This document shows, piece by piece, positions 3,183-34,580 of a stretch of DNA of 34,580 nucleotides (position 1 is its first letter; the number at the start of each line of letters is the position of its first letter). The DNA comes from Oscillospiraceae bacterium (GTDB lineage Bacteria > Bacillota > Clostridia > Oscillospirales > Ruminococcaceae). The notes beneath the pieces are model-generated. The model was not told where the DNA came from, did not search any database, and saw nothing but the letters and a program-made list of their open reading frames with translations. The translations under genes were made by a program, and so were the position numbers. The stretch covers positions 1 to 34,580 of the forward strand of contig JAIRWC010000004.1 of assembly GCA_031253495.1 (NCBI GenBank). The letters run 5' to 3'.

Positions 3183-3641
3183 ATGAGAACGGAAATCATT
3201 ATAGCCGAAGGTCAGTCGATAGTAACTTTCAACAACGTTCCCGCTTCTTACCAAAGTTCGTTTATACACGACGCGTTTGACGAGGCGGCCCGCGCCGGGA
3301 TAAACATAGACATGATTGCCCAGTCGCCGGCCACGTCGGATAAAATCAGTTTCGGTTTTACATTTTCCGATAACGACATGCCGAAACTGCTGACCATCAT
3401 AAACGCGCGCGGCGGAGATAAATCCCCGCCCCTGATTAACTGCGGGAACGTGAAAATCACCGTTAAATCGCGGGATATGGTTTCTTCGACAGGTTTCGCC
3501 TCGCGTGTTTTCGACATCCTGCGGGAGTTGGATTGTCTGCCCCTTCTCGTAACCACCGGCTTGGATGAAATTTCGCTGTTGGTTTACGAAAGCGCCCGCG
3601 CGGATTTGGAAAGGGAGTTGACAAAAGCTTTCGCGCCTTGA
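3183..3641 (+). CDS. ACT-domain protein resembling the aspartokinase regulatory half
   Basis: The 152-residue product looks like the tandem ACT region found at the C-terminus of aspartate kinases, without any kinase domain. An N-terminal strand containing GQSIVTFNNVP leads into the first ACT fold, and residues from about 80 on (INCGNVKITVKSRDM) form the second. ACT pairs bind amino acids such as lysine or threonine, so it may sense end product for the lysine pathway or regulate a separate aspartokinase (inference). The start at 3183 follows AAGGAGG at 3171-3177; an earlier ATG at 3144 lies within dapB and is rejected. It is the last gene of the operon and is followed by a terminator. Confidence 0.8.
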   Translation: MRTEIIIAEGQSIVTFNNVPASYQSSFIHDAFDEAARAGINIDMIAQSPATSDKISFGFTFSDNDMPKLLTIINARGGDKSPPLINCGNVKITVKSRDMVSSTGFASRVFDILRELDCLPLLVTTGLDEISLLVYESARADLERELTKAFAP

Positions 3642-3658
3642 CGGGCGGCGCTCCGCCG

Positions 3659-3686
3659 AGTCGCCGCGGTATCGGCGACTGTTTTT
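3659..3686 (+). terminator. rho-independent terminator of the lysine operon
   Basis: An 8-bp stem agtcgccg (3659-3666) pairs with cggcgact (3673-3680) around a 6-base loop and is followed directly by gttttt. It lies 18 bases after the ACT gene stop and separates the operon from the tRNA gene. Confidence 0.85.
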
Positions 3687-3701
3687 CCGACTGCTATAAG
3701 T

Positions 3702-3774
3702 CTGCTCGTAGCACAACGGATAATGCACCGGACTCCGACTCCGGGGATTGCGCGTTCAAATCGCGCCGAGCAGA
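3702..3774 (+). tRNA. tRNA-Arg (anticodon CCG)
   Basis: This 73-base cloverleaf has the acceptor stem CTGCTCG (3702-3708) paired with CGAGCAG (3767-3773) and discriminator A at 3774. The anticodon stem CCGGA/TCCGG holds the loop CTCCGAC, so the anticodon is CCG, reading CGG arginine codons. The T arm is GCGCG/CGCGC around TTCAAAT. The D stem has one mismatch, as is common in tRNA-Arg. CCA is not encoded. Confidence 0.93.
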
Positions 3775-3853
3775 GTGATTTTGAATAAATTCCGCAAAGG
3801 CGGCGCGGTGCGGGCGGTCGTTACGGTTATGACCGTCGGGACGTTCGCGCCGC

Positions 3854-3882
3854 TTGCATTTTACAAATTTTTATGTTATAAT
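3854..3882 (+). promoter_or_regulatory. promoter for the cvpA-like/clpE group
   Basis: TTGCAT at 3854-3859 and a perfect TATAAT at 3877-3882 are separated by 17 bases, 33 bases before the start at 3916. Confidence 0.8.
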
Positions 3883-3915
3883 GTCGCATATATATTACAA
3901 TGACGGAGGTTCATT

Positions 3916-4932
3916 ATGGGCGAACAGTTTTTTTGGTTTTACGACATATTGATAGCGGGAACGTTTCTCGGCGTCGCGTATAAGTGTACGCGGCAGGGGT
4001 TCGCCTCCTCAGCCGCGGGATTTGTCGGGATTTTGCTTTCTTTCGCGGCGGCGTTGGGATTAAGCGCCGGGTTATCCGAATACGCCTACGAAAACTGGAT
4101 AGGCCCCGGCATTTCCGAAAAGATAAATTATTCCGTGAATGACGGTCACGTTAAATCGACGTTCGATTCCCTGCGCACGATTGATATGTCAAAAGCGAAG
4201 ATTTCCGGAAAAAACCTAAGCGAAATCAACCTTAATCCCGATAACGCCGGAAAGGTTACCCTTGATTTGACAAACGTTGACTTAAGCGCGACGGGACTGG
4301 AAAAATCGGATTTGTCTTTTTTCCGGATAGATTCAAATATGTTCTTTTTCGGTAAAATAGACTTGGGCAAGGTGAACATAAGCGCTTCGGAACTCGCCGA
4401 AACCGACATAGGCACAATAATACTGTCAAGGACGCTGTCTGCGACCCTGGCGAAATCGTCGGACGGCGTTTATGACCAGCTTTCGGGTATCATGGAAAAC
4501 GTAATCCCCGGATTTTCAAAGGCGTCGGAGGGCAGCACGGATTTAGTGGCGAAGCTCATAGCGAACATCATCAAAACCGATTCCGCCACCCTTGAAGAAG
4601 CCATAAATGATAATTTGGTGAAACCCGTATTGATAATTCCCGTAAGGGCATTGATTTTCTCAATAATTTTTGCTATAATCAGCGTAGTGTGTTCAATCTT
4701 GGCTAAGTCGCTCAGACTCGTAAACAGCATACCCGTCGTCGGAAAACTCAATACCTTTCTCGGCGCTTTGCTCGGCGTAGTCGAAGCCGCGGTAGCCGTT
4801 TTCATGGTGTGTATAGGCGTTGGATTGCTTATATCGCTTACGGGGGACAACATAACGTTCTTAAATACGCCGACCGTGAACGAGACGAAATTGTTCAAAC
4901 ACATCTATTTTCTGGATTTTCTGAAGTTCTAA
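3916..4932 (+). CDS. CvpA-family-like membrane protein with large insert
   Basis: The 338-residue membrane protein has two hydrophobic segments at the N-terminus (about 8-30 and 36-56), a polar central part, and two more near the C-terminus (about 240-262 and 280-305). The ends resemble the CvpA family (colicin V production / cell-division-associated membrane proteins), which normally is about half this length. The central part, about residues 85-160, has a DL/NL-rich periodic pattern (LDLTNVDLSATGLEKSDL and similar) reminiscent of pentapeptide repeats. GGAGG precedes the ATG. It has its own promoter and is followed closely by the ClpE-like gene. Function is not known; the family assignment is moderate. 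Confidence 0.65.
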   Translation: MGEQFFWFYDILIAGTFLGVAYKCTRQGFASSAAGFVGILLSFAAALGLSAGLSEYAYENWIGPGISEKINYSVNDGHVKSTFDSLRTIDMSKAKISGKNLSEINLNPDNAGKVTLDLTNVDLSATGLEKSDLSFFRIDSNMFFFGKIDLGKVNISASELAETDIGTIILSRTLSATLAKSSDGVYDQLSGIMENVIPGFSKASEGSTDLVAKLIANIIKTDSATLEEAINDNLVKPVLIIPVRALIFSIIFAIISVVCSILAKSLRLVNSIPVVGKLNTFLGALLGVVEAAVAVFMVCIGVGLLISLTGDNITFLNTPTVNETKLFKHIYFLDFLKF

Positions 4933-4967
4933 GTATGCAGGTTTACGCACCGAAAGGAAACAATCGT

Positions 4968-7265
4968 ATGAAATGCACCAGATGCAAAAAAAGGATGGCG
5001 GTCGTCTTTATAACGACCATGCAGGGCGACGAAAAGCATAACGAGGGTCTTTGCCTTGTCTGCGCCAGAGAACTGGGCGTTCCGCAGGTCGGCGAATATA
5101 TGAAGCAAATGGGGCTTTCCGAGGATGACTTTGAAGAAAGCTACAAAGCGATTTTCGGCGACGACGACGATTTCGACGACGACGACGACGGTGTGGACGC
5201 TTTCAGACCCGGCGGAGCGGGAACGATGCCCAAATTTTTGCAGAACCTTTTTAAGGACGGCGGCGCGCTCCCTCCTCCCAATAAAGAGAAGCCGAAAGAA
5301 AAATCCAAGGAGAAAACCGTCAAAAAAGGCAAGGACGATAAAAAACGCAAATTCCTTGACACTTTCTGCACGAACATCACCGAAAAAGCGAAAAAAGGCG
5401 AACTTGACCGCATAATCGGCAGAGAGAAAGAAATTGAGCGCGTCATACAAATCCTTTCCCGCCGCACGAAAAACAACCCCTGTTTAATCGGCGAGCCGGG
5501 CGTGGGCAAAACGGCCATAGCCGAGGGCATAGCGCAAAAACTCGCGGCGGACGACGTGCCTTTCCGGTTATTGGGAAAAGAATTATATTTGTTGGATTTA
5601 ACCGTTCTGATTGCGGGAACGCAATTCAGGGGGCAGTTTGAAAGCAGGGTTAAGTCGCTTATCGAGGAAATCAAGTCGGCGGGCAATATTATCATATTTA
5701 TAGACGAGGTGCATAACCTTGTGGGAACCGGCGACAGCGACGGCACCATGAACGCCGCGAATATGTTCAAACCCGCGCTTTCACGCGGGGAAATGCAGGT
5801 AATCGGCGCAACGACGTTCGGCGAGTATCGTAAGCACATTGAAAAAGACGGCGCTTTGGAGCGCCGCTTTCAGCCCGTTACAATCACCGAACCCACAATC
5901 GGGGAGACGGTCGAACTGCTCAAAGGCATTAAAAACTATTATGAAGAGCATCATAAAATCAGGGTTTCGGACGATATCCTCCGTTCTTGCGCGGTTCTTT
6001 CGGAAAGGTACATAAACGACAGATTTCTTCCCGACAAAGCGATAGACCTGCTTGACGAGGCGGCGGCTTGCGCGAGCATAAGGAGCGCGGATTTATCGCT
6101 TTATGAAAGGCTGAAATCCGAGATTTTTGAGCTGGAAAAGGAAGAGAATGAAATTATGTCGGCGGGCGACGCCGTAGATTATGCGAAAATCGCGGAATTG
6201 AAAACGCGAATTGCGCGCAATCAAGAGCAAATCGCGGTTTTGGAGCCGACGATTACGAATTTGGAAATAACCGATTTGGATTTATCCTCGGTTATTGAGT
6301 TGTGGACGGGAATCCCCGCCGCTAAAATCATGGAAACCGAATTTAAAAAAATCGGCAGGTTAGAGGAAATTCTCAAACGGAAAATTATCGGGCAAGACGA
6401 GGCGTGCGAACACGTCGCCGCGGCGATAAGGCGCTCGAGGGTGCGTCTTTCGACAAGGAAACGCCCCTCGTCGTTTATTTTTGTGGGACCGACGGGCGTG
6501 GGAAAAACCGAGCTTGTCAAGGTTCTCGCCGGCGAATTATTCGATTCGGTAGACCCGCTGATACGGCTTGATATGTCCGAGTTTATGGAAAAGTTCAGCG
6601 TTTCGCGGATAATCGGCTCCCCTCCGGGTTACGTCGGATACGACGAAGCGGGGCAGCTTACCGAGAAAGTGCGCCGCAAGCCCTATTCCGTGGTGCTTTT
6701 CGACGAAATCGAAAAGGCGCATCCCGACGTTATGAACATTCTTCTGCAAATTCTCGACGAGGGCAAGGTGAACGACGCGCACGGGCGCACGATTTCTTTT
6801 GAAAACACCGTGATAGCCATGACGAGCAACGCGGGTTCCGCCGATAAATCCACGGGGGTGGGATTCGCCAAGACGGCGGGGGATATTTCCAAGGAAAAAG
6901 CGTTAAAAGCGCTTAAGGACTTCCTGCGTCCGGAATTTATCAGCCGCGTGGATGAAATTATCGTGTTTAAGCCGTTAAAAGAGGAGCATTACGCCAAAAT
7001 ATCCGAATTGATGATTGATGAAATGCGGGAACCTCTCAAAGAAAAGGAAATAGGGTTAGACGTTTCCGGCGAGGTTTACGCTTACATTGCGAAAAAGGCG
7101 TTCGGCGGCAAATACGGCGGACGTGATATAAGGCGGGTTATCCGCGACGAAATAGAAGACGCCGTCGCTTCGCTCATTGTGGAGAAGGGGGCGAAAAGCG
7201 AGGGCGGCTTGTCGGCTGTGCGCGTTTGTGTAAAGGATGATAAAATCAATGTCGCAGAACAGTAA
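4968..7265 (+). CDS. clpE: ClpE-type AAA+ unfoldase (Clp protease ATPase subunit)
   Basis: A 765-residue two-ring Clp ATPase that would feed unfolded proteins to ClpP. The N-terminus is a zinc finger CX2CX22CX2C (C3, C6, C29, C32), the hallmark of ClpE rather than ClpC. An Asp-rich run (65-74) and a Lys-rich linker (105-127) follow. AAA1 has Walker A GEPGVGKT (175-182) and Walker B IIIFIDEVH; a short coiled middle domain lies at about 380-430. AAA2 has GPTGVGKT (507-514) and VVLFDEIEKAHP, and VGF at 631-633 is the ClpP-docking loop. The start at 4968 begins exactly at the zinc finger; longer in-frame starts lie inside the upstream gene. No clpP is present here. Confidence 0.88.
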   Translation: MKCTRCKKRMAVVFITTMQGDEKHNEGLCLVCARELGVPQVGEYMKQMGLSEDDFEESYKAIFGDDDDFDDDDDGVDAFRPGGAGTMPKFLQNLFKDGGALPPPNKEKPKEKSKEKTVKKGKDDKKRKFLDTFCTNITEKAKKGELDRIIGREKEIERVIQILSRRTKNNPCLIGEPGVGKTAIAEGIAQKLAADDVPFRLLGKELYLLDLTVLIAGTQFRGQFESRVKSLIEEIKSAGNIIIFIDEVHNLVGTGDSDGTMNAANMFKPALSRGEMQVIGATTFGEYRKHIEKDGALERRFQPVTITEPTIGETVELLKGIKNYYEEHHKIRVSDDILRSCAVLSERYINDRFLPDKAIDLLDEAAACASIRSADLSLYERLKSEIFELEKEENEIMSAGDAVDYAKIAELKTRIARNQEQIAVLEPTITNLEITDLDLSSVIELWTGIPAAKIMETEFKKIGRLEEILKRKIIGQDEACEHVAAAIRRSRVRLSTRKRPSSFIFVGPTGVGKTELVKVLAGELFDSVDPLIRLDMSEFMEKFSVSRIIGSPPGYVGYDEAGQLTEKVRRKPYSVVLFDEIEKAHPDVMNILLQILDEGKVNDAHGRTISFENTVIAMTSNAGSADKSTGVGFAKTAGDISKEKALKALKDFLRPEFISRVDEIIVFKPLKEEHYAKISELMIDEMREPLKEKEIGLDVSGEVYAYIAKKAFGGKYGGRDIRRVIRDEIEDAVASLIVEKGAKSEGGLSAVRVCVKDDKINVAEQ

Positions 7266-30320: not shown

Positions 30321-31892
30321 ATGACCGATAACCGAAAAGAACAAGAACGGGCGGAACTCCACCGCACAATTTGGGGCATCGCCAATGACCTGCGCGGAAG
30401 CGTGGACGGTTGGGATTTCAAGCAGTATGTCCTTGGCATACTGTTTTATCGCTATATTTCCGAGAATATTACGGGTTATATCAACGACGGCGAACGCGAA
30501 GCGGGCAACGCCGCGTTTGATTACGCCAAGCTGTCCGACAAGGATGCGGAACAAGCCCGCGAGGATTTGGTGACCACAAAAGGATTTTTTGTCTTGCCTT
30601 CCGAGTTGTTCGAGAATGTCCGCTCCAAAGCCGCCGCAGACGAGAACCTTAATGAAACGCTCGAAACGGTGTTTAAGAATATAGAGGCGTCCGCGCAAGG
30701 AACGCCGTCTGAAGATAACTTCAAAGGGCTGTTCGACGATATCGACGTCAACAGCAATAAACTCGGCGGCACTGTCGCCAAACGAAACGAACGGCTCGTC
30801 AAGTTGCTGAACGGCGTGGGCGGGATGAACCTCGGCGCGTATCAAGACAACACCATCGACGCTTTCGGCGACGCTTACGAGTTCCTTATGGGTATGTATG
30901 CCTCCAACGCCGGAAAATCCGGCGGCGAGTATTACACGCCGCAAGAAGTTTCCGAACTGCTGACGCGCATCGCATTAGTCGGTAAAACCGAAGTCAACAA
31001 AGTATACGACCCCGCCTGCGGTTCAGGCTCACTGCTGTTGAAATTCGCTAAAATTCTCGGCAAAGAGAATGTCCGCAACGGATTCTTCGGGCAGGAAATC
31101 AACATCACCACCTACAACCTTTGCCGAATCAATATGTTCCTGCACGACATTGACTACGACAAGTTCGACATCGGACACGGCGACACGCTGACCGACCCGC
31201 TTCACTGGGACGACGAGCCGTTTGAGGCGATTGTCTCAAATCCGCCGTACTCCATCAAATGGGCGGGCGACGGCGATTCCCTCCTGATAAACGACCCGCG
31301 ATTCTCGCCTGCGGGAGTGCTTGCGCCGAAATCCAAAGCCGACCTCGCGTTTATCATGCACGCGCTCTCATGGCTCGCCACGAGCGGAACGGCGGCGATT
31401 GTCTGTTTCCCCGGCATATTCTATCGCGGCGGCGCGGAGCAAAAAATACGCCGATATCTCATCGACAATAACTTCGTGGATTGCGTGATTCAACTGCCGG
31501 ACAATCTTTTCTACGGCACGAGCATCGCCACTTGCATTATGGCTTTGAAAAAATCCAAGAGCGAAAACTCCACGCTGTTCATCGACGCTTCCCGCGAATG
31601 TGTGAAAGTCACGAACAACAATAAATTGACGCCGACTAACATCGATAAAATCGTCAAAACATATACCGACCGCGTCGACGTGGACTACACCGCCAAAGTC
31701 GTGCCGAACGGCGAAATCGCCGAACAAGGCTACAACCTCTCGGTATCTACATACGTCGAGCAGGAGGACAAGCGCGAAGCCGTGGACATTAAGGCGCTCA
31801 ACGCCGAAATTGACCGCATAGTCGCCCGTGAGGACGTTCTGCGCCGCGAGATTAACGCGATTATCGCCGAGATTGAGGGCGATGTGAATTGA
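30321..31892 (+). CDS. hsdM: type I restriction-modification methyltransferase subunit
   Basis: A 523-residue N6-adenine methyltransferase subunit. The N-terminal HsdM helical domain (about 10-150) includes WDFKQYVLGILFYRYIS. The AdoMet-binding motif is DPACGSGS (230-237) and the catalytic motif is NPPY (307-310). The C-terminal coiled tail contacts HsdS. AAGGAG precedes the ATG. Family knowledge: two HsdM and one HsdS form the methyltransferase. The gene is followed by a HEPN protein and an HsdS fused to a nucleotidyltransferase rather than by a plain hsdS. Confidence 0.95.
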   Translation: MTDNRKEQERAELHRTIWGIANDLRGSVDGWDFKQYVLGILFYRYISENITGYINDGEREAGNAAFDYAKLSDKDAEQAREDLVTTKGFFVLPSELFENVRSKAAADENLNETLETVFKNIEASAQGTPSEDNFKGLFDDIDVNSNKLGGTVAKRNERLVKLLNGVGGMNLGAYQDNTIDAFGDAYEFLMGMYASNAGKSGGEYYTPQEVSELLTRIALVGKTEVNKVYDPACGSGSLLLKFAKILGKENVRNGFFGQEINITTYNLCRINMFLHDIDYDKFDIGHGDTLTDPLHWDDEPFEAIVSNPPYSIKWAGDGDSLLINDPRFSPAGVLAPKSKADLAFIMHALSWLATSGTAAIVCFPGIFYRGGAEQKIRRYLIDNNFVDCVIQLPDNLFYGTSIATCIMALKKSKSENSTLFIDASRECVKVTNNNKLTPTNIDKIVKTYTDRVDVDYTAKVVPNGEIAEQGYNLSVSTYVEQEDKREAVDIKALNAEIDRIVAREDVLRREINAIIAEIEGDVN

Positions 31893-31934
31893 CTACGATT
31901 TGTTGTCAGTTAGAATCTGCCACCGTTAGTGGCA
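31889..31934 (+). promoter_or_regulatory. candidate internal promoter and inverted repeat before the HEPN gene
   Basis: TTGACT (31889-31894, overlapping the hsdM stop) and TAGAAT (31911-31916) are 16 bases apart. Directly downstream lies a 6-bp inverted repeat tgccac/gtggca with a 5-base spacer (31918-31934), a possible operator or 5' hairpin. The arrangement would let the HEPN and hsdS/hsdR part be transcribed independently of hsdM. Confidence 0.5.
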
Positions 31935-31958: not shown

Positions 31959-32369
31959 ATGGAAAACAAAGATATTAGATGGTTGCAACGCTTTGAGAAC
32001 TTTTCAAAAGCGTGCAGGCTTTTATCCGAAATTGGCGGTTATGAGTTTGACCAAACGCCGCCCATTATCCGCGAAGGATTTATCCAACGCTTTGAAATAA
32101 CCTTTGATTTGGCTTGGAAAACTATTAACGATTATTTGCGTTTTCTTGGTCATGATGTTCAGCCATCGCCGCGCCCTGTTATCAAAGAGGCGTTTGCGGC
32201 GAAAATCATCGCGAACGGCGAAGCGTTTATTGATATGCTCGAAGCGCGCAACGAAATGTCGCATAAGTATGACGAAGAAACTTTCAATAAAGTGTTTAAG
32301 CGGATTAAGAACGAATTTTACCCCGCACTTGAAGAATTACGCATTTATTTGGAGAGGAACAAAGAATGA
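31959..32369 (+). CDS. HEPN protein, HI0074-like partner of a nucleotidyltransferase
   Basis: A 136-residue all-helical protein of the HI0074 / nucleotidyltransferase substrate-binding family, part of the HEPN superfamily. EITFDLAWKTINDYL is the family signature helix. R97-NEMS-H102-K-Y104 is a complete RX4HXY motif, the ribonuclease active site in HepT-type toxins; the Tyr is the residue modified by partner nucleotidyltransferases in studied HepT/MntA systems. It is therefore probably a toxin-like RNase or its regulatory relative (inference). AAGGAG at 31946-31951 precedes the ATG. Its stop overlaps the next start by 4 bases (ATGA), and that next gene begins with the matching nucleotidyltransferase. 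Confidence 0.85.
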   Translation: MENKDIRWLQRFENFSKACRLLSEIGGYEFDQTPPIIREGFIQRFEITFDLAWKTINDYLRFLGHDVQPSPRPVIKEAFAAKIIANGEAFIDMLEARNEMSHKYDEETFNKVFKRIKNEFYPALEELRIYLERNKE

Positions 32370-33946
32370 ACATCGGGCTTTCGGATAAACACACGGTGCT
32401 TATAATTGATACATTAAAAAACTGCGGGGTTCGGCGGGCGGTTATATTCGGCTCACGCGCAAAAGGTAACTGGCGCAATAATTCCGACATAGATATAGCC
32501 GTGTTCGGCGGCTGTGTTCCAGAATTGCTTGCGCGGCTTGATGAACTGCCTATGCCGTATAAATTTGATGTGGTGGACTATGAAACAATAAATCATGAAC
32601 CGCTACGCGAACATATTGACCGTGTTGGGATTGAGTTGTTTTCACGCAAAAGCAGCAAGTTACAGCGACTTCTACAAGAACATTGCCCGGATGGGGTGGA
32701 GTATGTGCCGTTATGGAGCGTTACAGCGTGGGATAAACGATTTAACGCAGTTGAAAACAGCAAACAAACGAAAATAATCAGATACCCGTATCTCTTAGCA
32801 AACGACCTTAAAAAACTTGTTGTAAAAGAAGGTGGAACTGTCTATTTACTTTCAACGGGCGATTATTACGGATATACTACCGAAGAAAAAGCTGGTAATT
32901 ATATCAGTGAGGGTGAAGTTGTGACAATACCTTGGGGCGGGGTTGCTAATGTTCAATACTACAATGGTAAATTTGTTACCTCAGATAACCGTCTTGCAAC
33001 TGCTCTTGATACAATGGTTTTGAGTAACAAATTTTTATACTACTTTATGCAAAATAAGCAAAGAGAGATTCAGTCGTTTTATCGTGGTTCAGGTATTCAA
33101 CATCCAAATATGGCGGCTGTCCTTGATATGCAAATCCCCCTCCCCCCGCTCCCCGTCCAAGCCGAAATTGTCCGTATTTTGGACAATTTCGCGGAGCTTA
33201 CAGCGGAGCTTACAGCGGAGCTTACAGCGCGGAAGAAGCAGTATGAGTATTATCGGGATGAGTTGCTTTCGTTTGGTTGTTCACATACTGTTAACGTAGA
33301 GAGAGAGAGAGAGAGAGAGAGACGAGCGGCGCGATGGGTGACTTTGGGCGAGGTGATAATCTCTCTGAAAACAGGTCTGAACCCGAGGAAAAACTTTAGC
33401 TTGAACTCGGATAAGGCAACCAACTATTACGTTACCGTTCGCGAGATTATTGACGGCAACATCGTTTTTCTCGATAAAACTGACCGTGTTGACGATGAGG
33501 CATTAAGGCTGATAAACAGGCGCTCTAACCTTGAAGCGGGAGACGTACTGTTTTCCGGGACTGGAACAATCGGGAGGATTGCGGTGATAAAGGAAACGCC
33601 GACGAACTGGGGCATTAAAGAAGGCGTATATGTCATCAAGCCGAAACAGGGCGAGATTATGTCACGCTATCTTGCTCACATTCTTAATTCGAGCGAAGTG
33701 GTCAACCGCTATGCAAAGAAGATAGTCGGTTCGCCTGTGGCAAGTCTGCCTATGGCTGACCTCAATCGTTTAGAAATCCCCCTCCCCTCCCTCGATGAGC
33801 AAGCCCGCATTGTGGAAATTCTCGACAAGTTCGACGCGCTGACCACCGACATAGCCGCAGGGCTTCCCGCCGAGATTGCGGCGAGGCAGAAGCAGTACGA
33901 GTATTACCGTGACAAATTGCTCACGTTTAAGGAGACGGTTGCATGA
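32366..33946 (+). CDS. hsdS: fusion: MNT nucleotidyltransferase (antitoxin-type) + HsdS specificity subunit
   Basis: One 526-residue frame joins two families. Residues 1-95 are a minimal nucleotidyltransferase with GSX10DXD (G29-S30, D41, D43) and a third acid at D68; this type pairs with HEPN proteins. From about residue 97 (SKLQRLLQEHCPDGVEY) a typical HsdS begins: first target-recognition domain to about 260, central conserved helix with three TAEL repeats, an Glu-Arg run from a (GA)12 tract (codons 312-319), second recognition domain (about 325-480), and a C-terminal helix ending KQYEYYRDKLLTF that mirrors the central one. No internal start for HsdS alone is evident. It overlaps hsdR by 4 bases. 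The first recognition domain is more AT-rich than its surroundings, suggesting exchange. Confidence 0.9.
   Translation: MNIGLSDKHTVLIIDTLKNCGVRRAVIFGSRAKGNWRNNSDIDIAVFGGCVPELLARLDELPMPYKFDVVDYETINHEPLREHIDRVGIELFSRKSSKLQRLLQEHCPDGVEYVPLWSVTAWDKRFNAVENSKQTKIIRYPYLLANDLKKLVVKEGGTVYLLSTGDYYGYTTEEKAGNYISEGEVVTIPWGGVANVQYYNGKFVTSDNRLATALDTMVLSNKFLYYFMQNKQREIQSFYRGSGIQHPNMAAVLDMQIPLPPLPVQAEIVRILDNFAELTAELTAELTARKKQYEYYRDELLSFGCSHTVNVERERERERRAARWVTLGEVIISLKTGLNPRKNFSLNSDKATNYYVTVREIIDGNIVFLDKTDRVDDEALRLINRRSNLEAGDVLFSGTGTIGRIAVIKETPTNWGIKEGVYVIKPKQGEIMSRYLAHILNSSEVVNRYAKKIVGSPVASLPMADLNRLEIPLPSLDEQARIVEILDKFDALTTDIAAGLPAEIAARQKQYEYYRDKLLTFKETVA
33191..33226 (+). repeat. three perfect 12-bp tandem repeats (TAEL region) in hsdS
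   Basis: The unit gcggagcttaca occurs three times without mismatch and encodes the repeating Ala-Glu-Leu-Thr in the helix that separates the two recognition domains. In the EcoR124 family, two versus three such TAEL units change the spacing of the recognised bipartite site by one base. Confidence 0.92.
33299..33322 (+). repeat. (GA)12 simple-sequence tract in hsdS
   Basis: Twelve uninterrupted GA units lie in frame between the central helix and the second recognition domain, encoding alternating Glu-Arg. Gain of one unit puts the ribosome in a frame with a TGA six codons after the tract; loss of one leads to a TAG about 25 codons on. Both truncate HsdS after its first half. Confidence 0.92.
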
Positions 33947-34580
33947 GTACCTACAACATCGTGTCAAGCGACAACGATTCGACCGTCGTCGCCGAATATA
34001 TCCCGGAAGACCGTACCGCCGTAGCTTATCAGTCCGAGGCGGACTTGGAGCGCGATTTTATCAAGCGGCTTTCCGGGCAGGGCTACGAATACATCAGCGT
34101 CACCGACGAGGCGGGGTTGATTGCCAATCTGCGCCGCCGGCTTGAAACATTGAACGGGTACGCATTCACCGATTCCGAGTGGTCGCGGTTCTTCGCCGAC
34201 AGCATCGCCAACAAGAATGATAGCATCGTGGAGAAAACCAGAAAAATTCAAGACGACTATGTGCAAATCCTCAAACGGGACGACGGCACGACCAAGAATA
34301 TCTACCTCATAGACAAGAAGAATATCCACAACAACCGCCTGCAAGTACTGAACCAATACGAGACCGCCGACGGCGTCCATGCCAACCGTTACGACGTGAC
34401 GGTTCTCGTGAATGGTTTGCCGCTTGTGCATATCGAACTCAAACGGCGCGGCGTAGCCATCCGCGAGGCGTTCAACCAAATCAACCGCTACCAGCGCGAG
34501 AGTTTTTGGGCGGCGAGCGGATTGTTTGAGTATGTGCAAATTTTTGTCATCAGCAACGGAACGCATACGAAGTATTACAG
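33943..34580 (+). CDS. hsdR: type I restriction endonuclease subunit R (partial, runs off the window)
   Basis: The first 212 residues of an HsdR are present. The N-terminal nuclease domain is visible: D151 in NRYDVTVLVNG, and E165-L-K167 in VHIELKRRG form the PD-(D/E)xK active site, followed by AFNQINRY. The helicase motor and C-terminal parts lie beyond the right edge. The ATG overlaps the hsdS stop (ATGA), and AAGGAG lies 9 bases upstream inside hsdS. With hsdM and hsdS it would make a complete restriction complex. Confidence 0.93.
   Translation, partial: MSTYNIVSSDNDSTVVAEYIPEDRTAVAYQSEADLERDFIKRLSGQGYEYISVTDEAGLIANLRRRLETLNGYAFTDSEWSRFFADSIANKNDSIVEKTRKIQDDYVQILKRDDGTTKNIYLIDKKNIHNNRLQVLNQYETADGVHANRYDVTVLVNGLPLVHIELKRRGVAIREAFNQINRYQRESFWAASGLFEYVQIFVISNGTHTKYY

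Follow-up and report, generated by a model that had tools for sequence, protein, structure and literature searches.

Several described systems come close to the locus reported here, a type I restriction-modification (R-M) operon at the end of contig JAIRWC010000004.1 from an Oscillospiraceae bacterium (34,580 bases, analysed whole and called the window below), in which a HEPN gene overlaps a single open reading frame (ORF) that joins an MNT nucleotidyltransferase domain to the specificity subunit HsdS (written MNT::HsdS). One is the type VII HEPN-MNT toxin-antitoxin pair of the HI0074/HI0073 type solved as 8xdj and 8xeh, an RNase toxin with its adenylylating MNT antitoxin, which is short (~100 aa) and does without the long C-terminal helix used by other MNTs (PMC11586414). 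Another is PrrC, a HEPN-superfamily RNase whose gene lies within a type IC hsd operon and which serves as a second line of defence. PrrC carries an ABC-type NTPase, is held by the type IC enzyme EcoprrI and is released when a phage peptide disables that enzyme (PMC3710099; PMC3874165).

A 2013 survey of HEPN proteins made the general proposal that R-M-linked HEPN RNases are freed when the R-M system is neutralised, and its row for PF08780/DUF86 records occasional fusions to MNT and to nucleic acid methylases (PMC3710099). The terms 'HsdS' and 'S subunit' are absent from the main text of that survey, and an MNT-HsdS fusion was not seen in the passages covered, the supplements being outside this scope. 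The titles and abstracts searched in the openly licensed PMC literature likewise held no description of an MNT joined to HsdS, which is not proof of novelty. HEPN-MNT fusions are listed as BREX accessory genes in a 2026 survey (PMC12839542). The Cmr1-MntA chain of PDB entries 9z7q, 9z7v and 9z7x shares with our locus an MntA joined to an apparent subunit of an immune complex. Its name and the match point to a further joining of an MNT, here to a CRISPR subunit, of type III to judge from the name Cmr1; unlike in the window, the MNT is matched at the C-terminus. No paper on Cmr1-MntA was found in the openly licensed PMC literature. The idea of a HEPN RNase guarded by an R-M enzyme is already known from PrrC; what the window adds is a predicted covalent antitoxin fused to HsdS.

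Architecture of the operon

The central element is a 526-codon ORF in which an MNT domain and an HsdS are both complete. The original prediction, made from the letters of the sequence, had described a HEPN protein with RX4HXY that overlaps this ORF by 4 bases, and a GSX10DXD nucleotidyltransferase continuing into a full HsdS, and both descriptions hold. The operon takes up the last 4.3 kb of the window in the order hsdM, HEPN, MNT::HsdS, hsdR, with ATGA overlaps at the HEPN/fusion and fusion/hsdR junctions. Its features are as follows.

30321..31892, + strand: hsdM, DNA adenine methyltransferase subunit of the type I system (PF02384 376 bits, PF12161 74 bits, TIGR00497 757 bits, over cut-off)
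31918..31934, + strand: small hairpin (UGCCAC-CGUUA-GUGGCA) within the 66 bases that separate hsdM from HEPN (weak fold statistics)
31959..32369, + strand: HEPN gene, HI0074/PF08780 family, predicted RNase toxin (PF08780 111.5 bits, TIGR01987 92.8 bits)
32366..33946, + strand: MNT::HsdS, single ORF, 526 aa (Polbeta and Methylase_S x2; AlphaFold2 model, mean pLDDT 88.5)
32366..32650, + strand: MNT domain, residues 1-95, predicted adenylyltransferase antitoxin (PF18765 50.4 bits; Foldseek 8xeo/8xeh)
32642..32653, + strand: joint, residues 93-96, short, weakly predicted hinge (codons; pLDDT <50 at 93-95)
32654..33946, + strand: complete HsdS as predicted, of EcoR124 type with two target recognition domains, residues 97-526 plus stop (PDLC03144 299.5 bits; 7bst)
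33191..33229, + strand: 12-base repeat x3.2, which encodes the TAEL repeats of the HsdS central spacer (repeat search)
33298..33322, + strand: (AG)12.5 simple repeat between the HsdS halves, downstream of MNT (repeat search)
33943..34578, + strand: hsdR, truncated after 212 codons by the end of the contig (PF04313 165 bits)

The HEPN ORF encodes 136 aa, scores above the cut-offs of both PF08780 and TIGR01987 (HI0074), and contains RX4HXY as R97-NEMS-H102-K-Y104; its nearest solved chains are 8yuf and 8xdj. Across 21 undamaged HEPN rows from fused loci (window included), the R, H and Y of the motif are kept in every row together with a Glu aligned with Glu47, while the Gln aligned with Gln44 of the solved HEPN is Lys in three. 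With good support from homology and conservation, the window HEPN is predicted to be a latent RNase and the toxin part of the pair.

Within the fusion, Pfam places Polbeta at residues 13-96, plus two Methylase_S stretches, and the MNT motif is intact GSX10DXD (G29-S30-X10-D41-X-D43). In Foldseek, the MNT domain resembles 8xeo/8xeh, a solved MNT antitoxin (TMt 0.72-0.75). The two genes combine the marks of a type VII HEPN-MNT pair, a HEPN with RX4HXY and an MNT with GSX10DXD encoded by the adjacent gene. The nearest solved relatives of both parts are the members of one characterised pair, 8xdj/8xeh, the best sequence and fold match to the window, which also shares the short MNT. These likenesses give the toxin-antitoxin reading of HEPN and MNT good support, and a fusion at the C-terminal end fits an MNT of the type that lacks the long C-terminal helix. 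What sets the window apart from that pair is that its MNT is the N-terminal domain of HsdS in a type I operon, with toxicity and modification predicted. With PrrC it shares a HEPN-superfamily gene inside an hsd operon, RNase activity being predicted for the product. The window HEPN may work like PrrC or RloC but is not a member of that group, because its ORF has PF08780 only and the ABC-type NTPase is missing; PrrC is sequestered by the enzyme, whereas the window combines a minimal HEPN with an MNT fused to HsdS, and the HEPN and MNT lie, unlike PrrC, between hsdM and hsdS.

The best solved sequence match of the HsdS part is EcoR124II HsdS (7bst; E 6.8e-39; Foldseek TMt 0.78), and it belongs to the EcoR124-type HsdS proteins with TAEL spacer repeats, whose number has a known meaning in EcoR124I/II (PMC3874165). 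What distinguishes the window protein from the type IC HsdS of EcoR124I/II are the MNT domain added at its N-terminus and the (AG)n tract that separates its halves. Short repeats, NRTEQNRTEQ and RQTDRQTDRQT, also occur in the extended C-terminal parts of two related HsdS proteins (P0121, P0122).

An AlphaFold2 model of the fusion (54 sequences; mean pLDDT 88.5, pTM 0.67) contains two well-folded modules, with weak residues at 93-95 (pLDDT <50) and 306-310. The earlier statement that the ORF passes from one part to the other without stop or linker is borne out for the stop; the model, however, joins the modules by the short weak stretch at 93-95. Most HsdS relatives start MSKL-x-x-L...CPDGVEY, and the fusion reads ...GIELFSRK-SSKLQRLLQEHCPDGVEY, so that the joint has lost nothing but the stop of MNT and the start codon (initiator Met) of hsdS. 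As judged from the sequence, the HsdS part of the fusion is complete. A separate full HsdS from the window is unlikely, because the joint has no ATG, GTG or TTG codon until the GTG of 'GVE', and we rejected an internal start there on this ground; in 52 of the 232 listed fusions described below, a Met between residues 97 and 122 is kept and an internal HsdS start is possible.

The (AG)12.5 tract sits behind the MNT and the first target recognition domain (TRD1), and the two alternative frames run for 5 and 24 codons before a stop. It may be a phase-variation tract; since it lies downstream of the MNT, slippage would leave the MNT with half of HsdS, the antitoxin intact and TRD2 cut off.

With hsdM, a two-TRD hsdS and a partial hsdR in one operon, the locus has the make-up of a type I R-M system and is type IC-like. 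The window being the whole contig, hsdR is cut by its end; the remainder was not found in the rest of the genome, where a search for other PF08780 proteins also found none. The 86-base stretch with the hairpin folds at -18.4 kcal/mol (z -2.09), a weak signal equalled by 5 of 200 shuffles, and the hairpin is possibly a control element.

Recurrence of the fusion

For the protein searches, candidates were gathered by shared exact words, restricted to 0.55-1.75x the query length, and the best 120 listed. Residues 1-125 of the fusion matched 209 proteins, and the best 120 listed all carry MNT and Methylase_S; the MNT of a second lineage matched 160, and 112 of the best 120 listed are MNT::HsdS. This gives at least 232 MNT::HsdS proteins with lengths of 310-542 aa and an exact GSX10DXD in 232/232 listed, a conservation favoured by the exact words, which included the catalytic motif. 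Because the fusion recurs in this way (120 + 112 listed), chance joining is excluded. Where the sources name them, the listed fusions are mostly called 'restriction enzyme S subunit', and the source names include Bacteroidota, Verrucomicrobiota, Planctomycetes and several proteobacterial groups. Multi-megabase contigs carry three of them (P0256, P0257, P0290), and in P0268, P0304, P0328 and P0356 (310-330 aa) an MNT with a half-length HsdS occurs as a protein of its own. In the remaining eight of the 120 from the second search, the partner is a set of MurC-type ligase domains (5), a methylase (1), an exosortase (1) or an unassigned protein (1). The MurC-type fusions of this MNT family are P0260, P0262, P0265, P0281 and P0296, one of them named UDP-N-acetylmuramate--L-alanine ligase (Saprospiraceae); the methylase fusion is P0301 and the exosortase fusion P0314.

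The original prediction had called for a search for other MNT-HsdS ORFs and had made itself depend on the architecture occurring in another genome. The proteins listed answer this point, and together with the genome loci below they led us to reject a fusion unique to the window. Its other concern was a break in the reading frame between the two parts; with 232 listed ORFs of like build, a stop or frameshift there is very unlikely.

A scan of viral contigs gave no relative of the window MNT and, with an alignment used for genome loci (A1), one weak locus; the fusion was not seen there at this sensitivity. Phage records gave a single unannotated match (MT836473, 43% identity), the fusion again not seen at this sensitivity. 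On plasmids, the window MNT matched 83 records, all below 60% identity, and none of the 30 listed is annotated as an S subunit.

Genomic context of fused and unfused pairs

Alignment A1, with locus patterns from the MNT motif and the MNT C-terminal end, was compared with named genome contigs, and the figures that follow refer to the best 80 of 519 confirmed loci, among the matches listed. MNT and HsdS share one ORF in 21 of these 80, with hsdM upstream in 21/21, while hsdM lies near only one of the 59 unfused loci (L031, without hsdS). Two of the fused ORFs, in L032 and L033, contain only about half of an HsdS. Of the 21 fused loci, 18 have a HEPN of full length with RX4HXY; L022, where an ORF read as transposase-like fills the gap, lacks it, L027 has a truncated copy and the L036 copy has its middle deleted. 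As to whether a HEPN gene always precedes an MNT-HsdS ORF, it nearly always does, the exceptions being these three and L322 among the 11 Pseudomonadota fusions below. Further genes, which we take to be ATPase-like and others, stand between MNT::HsdS and hsdR in L017 (8514-11832), L030 (8509-11242) and L037 (6563-9123); on this reading, some MNT::HsdS operons appear to collect extra defence-like genes.

Counts anchored on the MNT all select for the MNT, and HEPN genes kept after MNT loss are outside their view; the lowest-scoring MNT places were also left out of the Bacteroidota, own-phylum and Pseudomonadota samples. In the first Bacteroidota sample, 74 of 395 genomes had an MNT match, with a fused-length frame in three, the seed included. 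In the sample of the window's own phylum the match was present in 47 of 199, and a frame of more than 400 aa only in the window's own genome; two long MNT frames of this sample, G654 (314 aa) and G507 (241 aa), were rejected as fusions, no HsdS being seen. Besides window and seed, the two samples yielded 120 MNT loci (L141 and L160 being the same place), 2 fused and 118 unfused, and R-M genes were flagged near four of the unfused ones. At L144 (1489-3310) the MNT lies between BrxC-like and PglX-like ORFs, with no HEPN detected, and the locus was rejected as a type I neighbour; its surroundings look like a BREX operon, the names BREX, BrxC and PglX being our reading of the sequence. L158 has a HEPN-MNT pair upstream of another hsdM, and in L171 the MNT overlaps a broken hsdS by ATGA. 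In L159 (382-1427) a HEPN-MNT pair lies within a truncated hsdS and in frame with it, possibly a fresh insertion into an R-M locus.

With one hsdM as anchor, a search of the 395 genomes gave 72 places, spread over 66 of them. In the 60 of the 72 that were examined, the gene next to hsdM is a plain hsdS in 52, MNT::HsdS in 5 (seed included) and an unfused MNT in none; three have no hsdS, two at short contig ends and L268 with an hsdM frame of 704 aa that seemingly runs into hsdS. In two of these five fusions, L276 and L277, the MNT and the HEPN are diverged. Each HEPN scores over the PF08780 cut-off; that of L277 keeps RX4HXY, that of L276 has RX4H without the Tyr.

With the L276 MNT as query, 54 of 398 Pseudomonadota genomes matched. 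Among 12 regions chosen for longer open frames, 11, in 11 genomes, have an MNT joined to HsdS, although the L319 HsdS is a remnant not scored as HsdS by Pfam and that of L329 has only half the length. Ten of the 11 have a detected HEPN upstream, with RX4HXY in 10/10 (the exception is L322), and 8 have a separate hsdM. In L319 a 687-aa MNT::HsdM fusion (3632-5695; NTP_transf_2, HsdM_N and N6_Mtase by Pfam) has its own HEPN upstream and is followed by a second HEPN and the MNT joined to the HsdS remnant. L325 (3040-3860) has tandem HEPN genes before the fusion, with RX4HXY only in the second.

Unfused arrangements also occur in Pseudomonadota, as HEPN-MNT-hsdS in L296 and as hsdM-HEPN-MNT-hsdS in L297, and an Acetobacter plasmid (L288) carries a complete unfused operon. 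The complete circular record of plasmid pZMOB01 from Zymomonas mobilis ATCC 10988 has HEPN, fused S and hsdR across its origin, beside a DNA methyltransferase gene that we read as hsdM; on two other Z. mobilis plasmids the pair lies outside R-M.

Origins and selection

Mapped on a 171-row MNT tree, the fused label changes 8 times, at least 4 changes being forced by well-supported branches; on a 290-row tree it changes 17 times, at least 5 being forced. The first tree is a quick one of ~100 MNT columns; a single clade for its 54 fused rows was rejected (p-AU 0.0053), and with it a single origin followed by spread. More than one origin of the MNT::HsdS fusion is therefore well supported by the trees, while their number is uncertain, the MNT being short and many forks poorly supported; exchange of HEPN-MNT cassettes inside fused operons could also mimic several origins in related hsdM lineages. 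The window fusion is independent, and three lines agree on this: its MNT pairs in both trees with an MNT from Oscillospiraceae that is not fused (support 95 and 98), an MNT domain occurs in none of the best 120 of 7999 scored HsdS relatives (precomputed Pfam domains), and the HsdM proteins of the fused loci compared share only 28-31% identity with that of the window.

Ratios of nonsynonymous to synonymous divergence (dN/dS) were obtained for 18 pairs of fused loci, which are all those with MNT identity of at least 72% and dS <2.5, the pairs not being independent. The values are 0.040-0.173 for MNT (18 pairs; 0.040-0.075 in the least diverged trio L036, L037, L039) and 0.021-0.059 for HsdM (13 computable pairs). 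HEPN gave 0.016-0.154 in 10 of 11 computable pairs, three of them involving the deleted L036 copy, and 0.284 in the pair with the truncated L027 copy. By these ratios, MNT and HEPN are under purifying selection. Given the low divergence of the MNT (72-97% identity in 18/18 pairs) and an HsdS identity of only 31-41% in 16/18, recognition domains have been exchanged directly after an MNT that is conserved.

Discussion

Our reading of these findings is that a type VII HEPN-MNT pair was taken up between hsdM and hsdS of a type I operon and that its antitoxin became the N-terminal domain of HsdS. HEPN would be an RNase able to stop growth, and MNT::HsdS, translated from the same message right after it through the ATGA overlap, would adenylylate and silence it. 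The fusion is thus likely, on the homologies given above, to be the antitoxin of HEPN, and the M2S or R2M2S complex would carry that antitoxin. If HsdS or the complex were lost, sequestered or degraded, newly made HEPN would stay unmodified and arrest the cell. This would back up DNA cleavage in the manner of PrrC beside EcoprrI. We give even chances to this explanation as a whole (uptake, fusion and a HEPN freed on failure of the complex), in which the toxicity of HEPN, its adenylylation by the fusion and the trigger are the parts that we infer. The toxin might be released by anti-restriction, as with PrrC/EcoprrI, or by loss of the operon. The interpretation first put forward, with the restriction complex as neutraliser of an RNase held back as a second line of defence, is partly supported. 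A more specific form is offered tentatively: the type I enzyme might act as a guard whose MNT works only while M2S is free, so that a phage DNA mimic or another anti-restriction protein binding M2S would stop adenylylation and let HEPN cut RNA. TRD exchange and AG slippage would change or halve specificity and spare the antitoxin, so that the switch would survive them, and it would have evolved repeatedly in unrelated HEPN/MNT subfamilies and phyla.

Several observations weigh against the mechanism proposed. The HEPN is damaged or gone in 3/21 fused loci with the operon kept, so HEPN is dispensable. Fusions are a minority by open frame (3/74 in Bacteroidota, 1/47 in the own phylum), and fusion is not required, since unfused hsdM-HEPN-MNT-hsdS operons exist (L288, L297). 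The HEPN gene comes first here, while according to the 2013 survey MNT is almost always first (PMC3710099). The MNT part scores 35 bits on the narrower NCBI MntA model NF047752, the cut-off being 60, and with only the first 212 codons of hsdR present, R-M activity is a prediction. The words and patterns of the protein and locus searches favoured intact MNTs, and MNT dS exceeds 1 in 12 of the 18 non-independent pairs, so that single dN/dS values are rough.

One rival explanation is addiction only: with its antitoxin fused to HsdS, the operon would be hard for a cell to lose, and remaining HEPN would poison cells that lose hsdS or the operon, without any phage trigger. HEPN-MNT pairs have been described as mobile toxin-antitoxin modules (PMC2701414), at least one fusion lies on a plasmid (pZMOB01), and HsdS cannot be lost alone once the antitoxin is fused to it. 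Yet fusions also occur on multi-megabase contigs, operons without an intact HEPN were not lost, and addiction requires no physical fusion, which nevertheless arose repeatedly; we hold this explanation to be doubtful, though a serious contender. Neutral read-through, the occasional loss of the MNT stop joining it to whatever follows, would explain the MurC-type, methylase, exosortase and unassigned partners and the fusion to HsdM in L319. HsdS may well tolerate an extra domain, for GFP on the C-terminus of EcoKI HsdS leaves activity unaltered and an EcoKI with HsdM and HsdS joined has been made (PMC2914225; PMC3510504). This view sits poorly with HsdS as partner in 112 of 120 listed proteins, with a motif kept throughout the 232 listed (word bias acknowledged) and purifying selection on the MNT, and with the hsdM-anchored set, where all five embedded MNTs are fused though unfused ones occur elsewhere, and we regard it as unlikely.

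The name of the HEPN family, 'nucleotidyltransferase substrate binding', and again the MNT::HsdM of L319 would suit a regulatory role, with HEPN as a substrate-binding partner instead of a toxin and the pair nucleotidylating HsdM, HsdR or another target to switch restriction. We consider this improbable to a still greater degree, as RX4HXY is conserved, the closest characterised pair is a toxin with an adenylylating antitoxin, and R-M operons persist without an intact HEPN. That assembly or sequencing joined two genes might be suspected from a draft genome of 45 contigs with the locus at a contig end, but the architecture in at least 232 listed proteins and in a complete circular plasmid record refutes this as a general explanation and leaves it a negligible chance for the window.

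For study of the mechanism favoured here, pZMOB01 offers a test bed in a harmless organism, with the Acetobacter operon and the pairs outside R-M on two Zymomonas plasmids as natural unfused comparators. HsdS annotations are worth checking for MNT domains, because most named fusions are labelled restriction enzyme S subunit. If the mechanism is correct, it would generalise the PrrC case, and knockout or inhibition of hsdS in such strains should be toxic. It would also explain how a second-line RNase can sense the failure of restriction without a dedicated sensor, and a recurring class of type I systems would carry a covalent-modification antitoxin on the subunit that reads DNA.

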